Shown in pieces: positions 27,474 through 30,061 of a DNA stretch of 40,369 nt (its first letter is position 1; each line of letters starts with the position of its first letter). The position numbers and the translations under genes are program-made. The notes below the pieces were generated by a model, which saw nothing but the letters and a program-made list of their open reading frames with translations, was not told the DNA's origin and did no database searches. Source of the stretch: a virus; the IMG/VR virus record IMGVR_UViG_3300046532_002190, positions 1 through 40,369 of that record; one strand, written 5' to 3'.

Positions 27474-27962
27474 CTAGTCACACATAATTTCATTACAATA
27501 GTGTGCTATCAATATAGCATCACTTACATTAAAGGTTATTCTTTTTTCAGGAAAATCATACCTACCTTTTGTACTTAGGTCTTCTGATAATTCCTTTAAT
27601 TCCCTTTTTCTTTCTTTTCTAGTTACTCCCTTTTTTATATTAAACCAGCTCATCCATTTATATGGTTCTATATCATGTTGATGTATATCTAGACTAGCTA
27701 TTATACCTTCCCATCTACCATAATTCTGCCCAAAGCTAAAGGTAGATACAACTCCTTGCCCTGGAAAAGAATGAACATGCTCTACCATGCAATAGACCTT
27801 ATCATATTTCTCATATGTTAAGTCCCATACCAAAGTCTGAAAATCATAAGACATTTCTTTTGGGTCTTTCCCACATCTTATGAAATTAATCTGCTCTTTA
27901 TATATAGCAGCTATACCCCCATTCTTACCTGGATCTACACCTATATATAGATTATTATCCAT
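27474..27962 (-). CDS. RuvC-like Holliday junction resolvase
   Basis: 162 residues with the RuvC/RNase H catalytic layout: Asp10 in GVDPGKNGGIA, Glu61 in VEHVHSFPGQG, and Asp148 in VSDAILIAHYC near the end. The segment STFSFGQNYG (73-82) followed by a basic patch (RKERKRELKEL) is typical of phage RuvC. It would cut four-way and branched DNA made by recombination before packaging. It overlaps the helicase gene by eight bases, consistent with one replication operon. Confidence 0.88.
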   Translation of the reverse strand: MDNNLYIGVDPGKNGGIAAIYKEQINFIRCGKDPKEMSYDFQTLVWDLTYEKYDKVYCMVEHVHSFPGQGVVSTFSFGQNYGRWEGIIASLDIHQHDIEPYKWMSWFNIKKGVTRKERKRELKELSEDLSTKGRYDFPEKRITFNVSDAILIAHYCNEIMCD

Positions 27963-29280
27963 TTCTCATCTCCTTTCTACAATCCTCTATTGATTCATAT
28001 ATTCTCGCTCTATCACCCCAATATCCTAGTTTCACAGTACCTGAAACACCATATCGAACCTTAGAACCTATTAACTCTATTATATTTTCTCCATCTTTAC
28101 CATTCATTTTAACTTTATGTTCATAGTATATAAAGAAAACATTCTCTGCTACTTGCTCTATTGCACCACTTTCAGCTAGATCAGATAACTTAGGCTTACC
28201 ATCTCCCCTTGTTTCTATACTACGATTTAATTGAGATAATAATATAGCTGCGCAATTATTGGATTTTACCAACCACTTATAATCATTTATTAATCGTTCT
28301 AACTGTAATCTCCTTTCTAACTTTGAATTCTCTGGTGATATTAATTGTATGTAGTCATCAAATATTACATCAGGCTTAAACTTTTTAACCTCCTTTGATG
28401 ATTCTTCAAATGATGATAGGTTATCAAACATAGCAAACCTATCCTCACTATACTTATTTGCTATAGTATTCTTAACTTCATCTAATCTAGCTGCAGTTTC
28501 TAGGTCATTTATATATCCTCTCCTAACATTCAGATAAGATAATTTCCCTGACTCTAAAACCATCAACTTTTTTAGCATTTCTATATTAGTCATCTCTCTG
28601 TTAAAAACCATAACCTTTAGTCCTTGATCCATACAAGATTTGATAAGATTTAACATCATAGTAGTTTTACCATGACCTGGTCTTCCACCTATTATAGATA
28701 GTTCTCCTCTAGTTATACCACCTGATAGTTTATCAATTTCTTTAAACCCTGTTTTTATTATATTAATACCTGCATCTCTAATACTTTCTAATGTCTTAGT
28801 TAGGTATTGATTTATATCAAACTTCACTCCTGGCTTTAAGTCTATTAATTTACCTATCTCTGTGTGTGCATCATTCATCATACTATAAACATCTTGATTA
28901 GCATAAGCTAGGTCGTTAATTGCAGATGTTTTTATTATTACATTTCTTAATAGATATAGTTCATATATCTTCTTAGAATAATACATGTAATTAACAGAAC
29001 TCATCCCATTACTATAGACTTGACTTATATAATAACTAGTCAATAAAGGGTCTGCACATATAGATGCTTTAGCACTAACTGTAACTAAGTCTATAGGTTC
29101 ATTATCCTTAACCATTTCTTTTATAACTCCAAATAATCTCTTGTTAATATTATTATAAAAGTAATCTCTATGTAAAAAAGGAGAAACTTCATTGTATATA
29201 GAAGGTCTACCTATTAAGTTACCTAGAACTGCTTTTTCTGTATCTTCACAATGAGGAGATACCCTAACATCTTTCTGCAT
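27955..29280 (-). CDS. DnaB-like replicative helicase
   Basis: 441 residues. The N-terminal domain (about 10-110) has the DnaB start CEDTEKAVLGNLI. The RecA-like domain has Walker A GRPGHGKTT (199-207), the catalytic NRE (227-229), Walker B VIFDDYIQLI (305-314), SQLNRSIE (349-356) and the LAESGAIEQ motif (368-376). It unwinds DNA 5' to 3' at the fork as a hexamer. No primase, polymerase or obvious loader gene is present, so it must work with host proteins. It starts inside the methyltransferase end (17-base overlap). Confidence 0.93.
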   Translation of the reverse strand: MQKDVRVSPHCEDTEKAVLGNLIGRPSIYNEVSPFLHRDYFYNNINKRLFGVIKEMVKDNEPIDLVTVSAKASICADPLLTSYYISQVYSNGMSSVNYMYYSKKIYELYLLRNVIIKTSAINDLAYANQDVYSMMNDAHTEIGKLIDLKPGVKFDINQYLTKTLESIRDAGINIIKTGFKEIDKLSGGITRGELSIIGGRPGHGKTTMMLNLIKSCMDQGLKVMVFNREMTNIEMLKKLMVLESGKLSYLNVRRGYINDLETAARLDEVKNTIANKYSEDRFAMFDNLSSFEESSKEVKKFKPDVIFDDYIQLISPENSKLERRLQLERLINDYKWLVKSNNCAAILLSQLNRSIETRGDGKPKLSDLAESGAIEQVAENVFFIYYEHKVKMNGKDGENIIELIGSKVRYGVSGTVKLGYWGDRARIYESIEDCRKEMRNG

Positions 29281-30061
29281 CTAGTACCTCCTTTAGTCTT
29301 TTAAAGATAAGATATGGAATTTGAGGAACTATAGAATTGCCTAATGCGTGGATTCTTTCTTTCCTATTAATCACTTCTTTTCCAACCCTTGAGATTCCTC
29401 TAGGTTCGTGTAGCCAATTGGATAACCCATCATCCACTCTATCCATTCTGGATGTAAATACGCTGTTCGTTTGCTCTGGTATTCCATCTCTGCTACTCGA
29501 CTCACTAAATCGTTCCCTTTCCAATTCGCTGTTTTCCTTCTTGCATTGTAATCTGATGCTACTGGGGTAGGCAACAACCCAGATTCTTTCTCTTTTATGC
29601 CAAGCACCAACTTGCTTTGCAGATATACATTGCCATTCTGCATCATACCCTGCTTCGGCAAGATCTCTAAGTACGATGTTGAGTCCTCTACTAGTGAGAG
29701 CTGCGACATTTTCAATGATTGCGAATCTGGGTCGTAACTCCCTAATAAGCCTGTAATATTCAAACCAAAGACCTGACCTTGTTCCTTCATTTATTCCTGC
29801 TCCTTTCCCTGCTAATGAAATATCTTGACAAGGGAATCCCCCTGTTATAATATCTACATCACCAGATTGTTCTTTTGTTAATGTTTTAATATCCCTGAAT
29901 ATTGGAGCATCAGGGAATCTCTTCTCTAATAGACTTATGCAATATTCATCTATATCGCAGAAGCCTTTAATGTCTAGTTTATTTCCCCAAACCCATTTAG
30001 CAGAGAGGGAGAATCCCCCTATACCACTAAATAAATCTAGTAGTTTGATAGTCTCTTTCAC
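29264..30061 (-). CDS. DNA (cytosine-5) methyltransferase
   Basis: 265 residues. Motif I LLDLFSGIGGF (7-17), motif IV GGFPCQDIS (74-82) with catalytic Cys78, motif VI ENV (117-119), motif VIII variant QVGAWHKRERIW (150-161) and motif X HALGNSIVPQI near the end. It adds a methyl to C5 of cytosine in a short target, probably to escape host restriction. The target-recognition segment between motifs VIII and X (about 165-235) is very short, and the DNA encoding this part also encodes another ORF. It lies just upstream of the helicase. Confidence 0.93.
   Translation of the reverse strand: MKETIKLLDLFSGIGGFSLSAKWVWGNKLDIKGFCDIDEYCISLLEKRFPDAPIFRDIKTLTKEQSGDVDIITGGFPCQDISLAGKGAGINEGTRSGLWFEYYRLIRELRPRFAIIENVAALTSRGLNIVLRDLAEAGYDAEWQCISAKQVGAWHKRERIWVVAYPSSIRLQCKKENSELERERFSESSSRDGIPEQTNSVFTSRMDRVDDGLSNWLHEPRGISRVGKEVINRKERIHALGNSIVPQIPYLIFKRLKEVLDAERC
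29371..29790 (-). CDS. 139-residue ORF nested out of frame inside the methyltransferase gene
   Basis: Entirely inside the methyltransferase gene, same strand, other frame. The ATG at 29790 is preceded by AAAGGAGCAGGAATAA, a very good ribosome site. The product is not random: LPKQGMMQNGN (44-54), GLLPTPVASD (71-80) and HPEWIEWMMGYPIGYTNLE (113-131) match a protein pattern (LPTPxAxD ... NPxFVEWLMGxPxGWTxLE) that I recall in many phage proteins annotated near or as methyltransferases. Codon by codon, this last motif is the same DNA as RVDDGLSNWLHEPRGISRV in the methyltransferase frame. The function is unknown. Confidence 0.6.
   Translation of the reverse strand: MKEQGQVFGLNITGLLGSYDPDSQSLKMSQLSLVEDSTSYLEILPKQGMMQNGNVYLQSKLVLGIKEKESGLLPTPVASDYNARRKTANWKGNDLVSRVAEMEYQSKRTAYLHPEWIEWMMGYPIGYTNLEESQGLEKK

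Follow-up and report, generated by a model that had tools for sequence, protein, structure and literature searches.

A phage C5-cytosine methyltransferase very likely composed of two polypeptides encoded in overlapping frames

In the bacterial methyltransferase M.EcoHK31I, the gene of the large polypeptide (309 aa) also contains, in a different frame, the coding sequence of the small one (176 aa), a rare layout. PMC3404938 assigns motifs I-VIII and X of this two-polypeptide enzyme (YGGCCR) to the large polypeptide and motif IX to the small one, with a predicted target-recognition domain also in the large polypeptide; it further cites Lee, Kam and Shaw 1995, whose title claims that both polypeptides are needed in vitro. 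The other natural split is that of M.AquI (CYCGRG). For this enzyme, PMC3404938 puts motifs IX and X together in the small subunit.

The locus described here lies in the window, i.e. the whole analysed stretch of 40,369 nucleotides from the viral record IMGVR_UViG_3300046532_002190. It resembles M.EcoHK31I (compared by published description) in having a nested second ORF (hereafter beta), in the presence of motif IX in the small polypeptide, and in the presence of motifs I-VIII and X in the large one. It differs in being a phage gene with smaller subunits and no recognised adjacent restriction enzyme, as well as in the location of the conserved block beside motif IX, which is in beta, while M.EcoHK31I has its predicted target-recognition domain in the large polypeptide. 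Like M.AquI, the locus encodes a C5-methyltransferase split into two subunits; unlike M.AquI, it has motif X in the enclosing ORF (alpha), beyond the stop codon of beta. The M.AquI split corresponds to the tandem forms found in actinophages (RemusLoopin, Obama12; see below). The best reading makes the locus a new member of the M.EcoHK31I-type nested two-subunit layout. This layout itself is already known; the new points are its family-wide conservation and the missing annotation of beta. In the limited open literature that was searched, no previous account of phage methyltransferases with a nested beta gene was found, a negative result that does not prove that none exists. The two ORFs and their landmarks are:

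29264..30061, minus strand: alpha, the C5-cytosine methyltransferase ORF (265 codons, GTG start)
29822..29842, minus strand: motif IV of alpha, GGFPCQD, with the catalytic cysteine
29800..29806, minus strand: AAAGGAG, a Shine-Dalgarno-like element 9 nt 5' of the beta ATG
29371..29790, minus strand: beta, the nested ORF (139 codons, ATG to TGA), in the +1 frame of the methyltransferase gene
29551..29580, minus strand: conserved block GLLPTPVASD of beta, just past motif VIII of alpha
29401..29454, minus strand: motif IX of beta, HPEWIEWMMGYPIGYTNL; the same bases in the alpha frame read RMDRVDDGLSNWLHEP (an echo)
29375..29467, minus strand: alpha residues 199-229, predicted to be disordered (pLDDT < 50), opposite motif IX of beta
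29321..29347, minus strand: motif X of alpha, ALGNSIVPQ, downstream of the beta stop
27955-29280: DnaB-like replicative helicase gene (PF03796, 6e-47)

The beta ORF is contained wholly within alpha, in a different frame of the same strand. A preliminary description of this DNA had pointed to the 139-codon ORF, to a good ribosome site before it and to its motifs GLLPTPVASD and HPEWIEWMMGYPIGYTNL; all of these were recovered, the coordinates exactly. The coding-strand context of the start is GGGAAAGGAGCAGGAATAA followed directly by ATG, and the predicted product begins with MKEQGQ and would, as a free protein, have a size of ~16 kDa. The AAAGGAG element of beta also encodes part of the conserved alpha stretch GKGAG, a dual use that may favour the origin of internal starts at this place. 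The end of the alpha gene overlaps the start of the helicase gene by 17 bases (29264-29280).

Alpha matches PF00145 at 5.1e-40 (138 bits versus a curated cut-off of 22) over profile positions 2-236 of 324, and contains motifs I-VIII and X without motif IX. At the sequence level its match to M.HhaI spans only residues 12-179. The AF2 model of alpha (pLDDT 84; rows from annotated records were left out of the alignments for structure prediction) has a VIA Z of 25-26 to M.HhaI and superposes on it end to end (10-327), aligning only ~202-218 of the 327 residues. The locus thus shares with M.HhaI and PF00145 the fold of alpha, motifs I-VIII and X, and a similar motif IX (LHPEWIEWMMGYP in beta, LHPRECARVMGYP in M.HhaI). 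Unlike the locus, M.HhaI is a single chain with motif IX in frame.

Beta also has a conserved block upstream of motif IX. Searches of Pfam and NCBIfam profiles gave no match for beta, and a PDB sequence search gave chance hits only. A profile comparison with ordinary C5-methyltransferases gave a weak hit, at motif IX only (E 0.024); since no profile match to ordinary C5-methyltransferases was obtained outside this motif, a target-recognition role of beta is one that we infer. Beta has a profile match to motif IX of Mycobacterium phage Shauna1 (2.7e-9), and phrog_1008 (annotated as DNA methyltransferase) matched both beta (7e-16) and the C-terminal half of the RemusLoopin protein (2.7e-43), uniting beta with the second genes of the actinophage tandem forms. 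The predicted structure of beta alone has a pLDDT of 62, with only the motif IX part at ~85. Such a low-confidence fold fits a requirement for an obligate partner and is not proof of one.

The nested ORF is a true overlapping gene, as the preliminary description had proposed; shuffles, synonymous constraint and homologues all support this. As a null model, the synonymous codons of the methyltransferase gene were permuted with the protein kept identical. In 20,000 permutations of the window gene, a +1 ORF of at least 139 codons never appeared (maximum 133, mean 55 codons), and the motif IX core arose in 4% of them. Extended to 96 genes, the same procedure found a +1 ORF longer than in shuffles at p<=0.01 in 71 of them, and a +2 ORF longer than in shuffles in none (0/96); 80 of the 96 had the strict motif IX pattern in +1, versus 1.8 expected from shuffles. 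Ordinary single-chain C5-methyltransferases from bacterial genomes, subjected to the same shuffles, showed neither a +1 motif IX nor an excess of +1 ORF length, and the nested genes in the same control sample stood out from them.

Synonymous variation in the methyltransferase frame was depressed within the overlap, in agreement with the same proposal. Among the three closest sequences, fourfold-site differences in the alpha frame were 12/23 outside and 4/36 inside the overlap for the window versus L093 (Fisher p = 9e-4), 12/23 and 4/34 for the window versus L092 (p = 2e-3), and 14/31 and 3/44 for L093 versus L092 (p = 1.5e-4), three tests that share branches and are not independent. Across the family (~1,700 more distant pairs, which are not independent either and are roughly aligned in the variable region), synonymous divergence is ~0.5-0.6 before the overlap. 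It dips to ~0.25-0.4 over alpha residues 109-145, reaches ~0.12 over 217-232 and is back at 0.5-0.7 past motif X. Both dips coincide with blocks that are conserved in the nested protein.

The same bases read in both frames opposite motif IX are not equally constrained. Entropy of the motif IX block at beta codon positions 1, 2 and 3 is 0.47, 0.58 and 1.13, a coding-frame pattern, and identity is 71% in the beta reading versus 56% in the alpha reading. Because of this codon-phase signature and the higher identity of beta, the alpha consensus RVADGVPxRVDR is mostly a shadow of the beta WVEWLMGFPxGWTD. The original suggestion that both frames look selected therefore stands where the overlap faces motifs V-VIII of alpha and fails over RVDDGLSNWLHEPRGISRV, where codon-phase entropy, pairwise identity and structure prediction point to selection mainly on the nested frame, with the alpha reading largely an echo. 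The reverse possibility, that the nested frame is itself a relic without expression or merely reflects conserved alpha residues, draws on the fact that part of the beta similarity lies opposite the strongly conserved motifs V-VIII. It appears scarcely tenable, as shuffles that leave the alpha protein intact abolish the nested ORF and its motif, synonymous sites show constraint, codon phase within the motif IX block favours beta, and the ordinary C5-methyltransferase controls have no +1 motif IX.

Homologues of the nested frame were detected in 203 phage records, 27 plasmid records, at least 439 viral-contig stretches and 342 genome stretches. Cultured phages with a nested pair include Bacteroides phage BF1-TP2 and Vibrio phage ZQ26. 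Two samples were compared, one of 95 viral loci chosen by the methyltransferase (alpha) alone and another of 80 bacterial-genome loci chosen by the beta motif. All 95 viral loci (95/95) have a long +1 ORF (>=105 codons). Most of them have the strict motif IX pattern in +1, none has it in +2, and one (L155) has it in the alpha frame; eight loci that missed the strict pattern have, when read by eye, a variant motif IX in +1. Among the beta-selected genome loci, the motif is +1 to alpha in 77 of the 80, and the remaining three look like genes that are broken or carry a single indel. The homologues are thus real, and nearly all of them overlap a methyltransferase gene in the +1 phase, in line with the early proposal of a true overlap. 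A free-standing beta was also considered and is ruled out in the genome sample, where an alpha-type catalytic domain adjoins in 80/80 loci.

Two other arrangements of the same module exist. In Shauna1 gp67 an in-frame fusion makes it part of a single chain that also has motifs I-VIII and X; this protein belongs to the same catalytic-domain clade and has the LLPTPxAxD and PEWMMGWPxGW blocks, its single frame with motifs I-VIII and X setting it apart from the window. In actinophage tandem forms, the second methylase genes (RemusLoopin gp35, Obama12 gp79, Jamun gp40, Camerico gp39) carry the LLPTPxAxD block together with motifs IX and X. In the catalytic-domain tree, nested, tandem and fused forms group in a single clade (100/99) that excludes the 21 ordinary Dcm-type enzymes, with the fused and tandem forms side by side. 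Such fused homologues lend good support to alpha and beta being components of a single enzyme. A mosaic arrangement is seen in L155:1501-2553, which has motifs IX and X in the alpha frame (its PF00145 match extends over 2-322 of 324, against 2-236 for the window alpha) and the upstream block of beta (SGMMQNGIVYRLPPLV...LLPTPLASA) still in +1; judged by its sequence, it looks like an intermediate or a recent frame change.

With the observed frames, motif split, constraint, family-wide +1 phase and fused and tandem homologues as its direct basis, the locus very likely encodes one C5-cytosine methyltransferase in the form of two polypeptides from overlapping frames, alpha as the catalytic domain and beta as the small domain, for which we infer a heterodimer. 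Alpha would bind S-adenosylmethionine and perform catalysis (motifs I-VIII and X), and beta would bring in motif IX as part of the small domain and, probably, target recognition. Their association would produce the active enzyme, both being required, with beta docking at the position of the small domain of single-chain enzymes (M.HhaI) and touching the DNA major groove. A small protein from the same gene might also be an inhibitor or regulator outside the active enzyme. We regard this as very improbable and reject it because the motif IX of beta is the one that alpha is without, i.e. the enzyme's own missing motif, and in Shauna1 gp67 the module is joined in one chain to motifs I-VIII and X. 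Between the partner and the inhibitor offered at the outset, it is the partner, as a subunit, that holds.

Judging from the sequence around its start, beta is likely made by internal initiation in the +1 frame, at its own ATG behind the Shine-Dalgarno-like site. In 119/119 relatives some start codon precedes the conserved block, and in 89/119 one of these has a Shine-Dalgarno-like site, the latter a weak figure given several starts per gene and a background of 9% per start codon. Ribosomal frameshifting from alpha, yielding an alpha-beta fusion, would be in keeping with the invariable +1 position of beta, with the known fused homologues and with some relatives that have no good Shine-Dalgarno site and start codon near the usual position (a strong internal start near the window position is absent from some). 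It is nevertheless improbable: in the window an ATG follows AAAGGAG at a distance of 9 nt, in the closest relatives a TTG preceded by AAAGGAG occupies almost the same position, and a fusion in the nested form would be without motif X unless the frame shifted back. Since no restriction enzyme was recognised beside the methyltransferase gene, a self-protecting role is likely, in which an orphan modification enzyme would protect the phage DNA against restriction by the host.

The public records examined usually annotate just one of the two frames. For example, only alpha is annotated in the nested phage records L001, L002, L004, L005 and L320. In L007 (Virus Rctr197k, 1727-2519), the beta-frame ORF is recorded as a conserved hypothetical protein and the alpha methyltransferase frame is missed; in L003, the annotation covers only the end of beta. 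Cloning a recoded version of the annotated gene, or using the annotated protein alone, would for this reason probably give a dead enzyme, with motif IX judged missing. We consider it likely that nesting is the standard layout of this whole phage and bacterial C5-methyltransferase clade, with nested, tandem and fused forms interconverting, and that many annotated single orphan methyltransferases would be inactive if cloned without the hidden beta. Two interleaved frames encoding two domains of one enzyme, conserved in very distant phages and bacteria, represent an unusually clean case of dual coding, and the fused and split relatives allow the origin of such overlaps to be tested.

Two further observations concern individual relatives. 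The annotated starts of the second methylase look too short in L318:1088-1250 (Obama12) and L006:1884-2196, where an open conserved frame (PTSGMTRSG and similar) extends far upstream. In L009:1229-1945, the methyltransferase is broken before motif IV by an insert of ~470 bases resembling an HNH-type endonuclease (CEEC...HHNDYNKP...CQKCHHKWH), possibly an intron or homing element.
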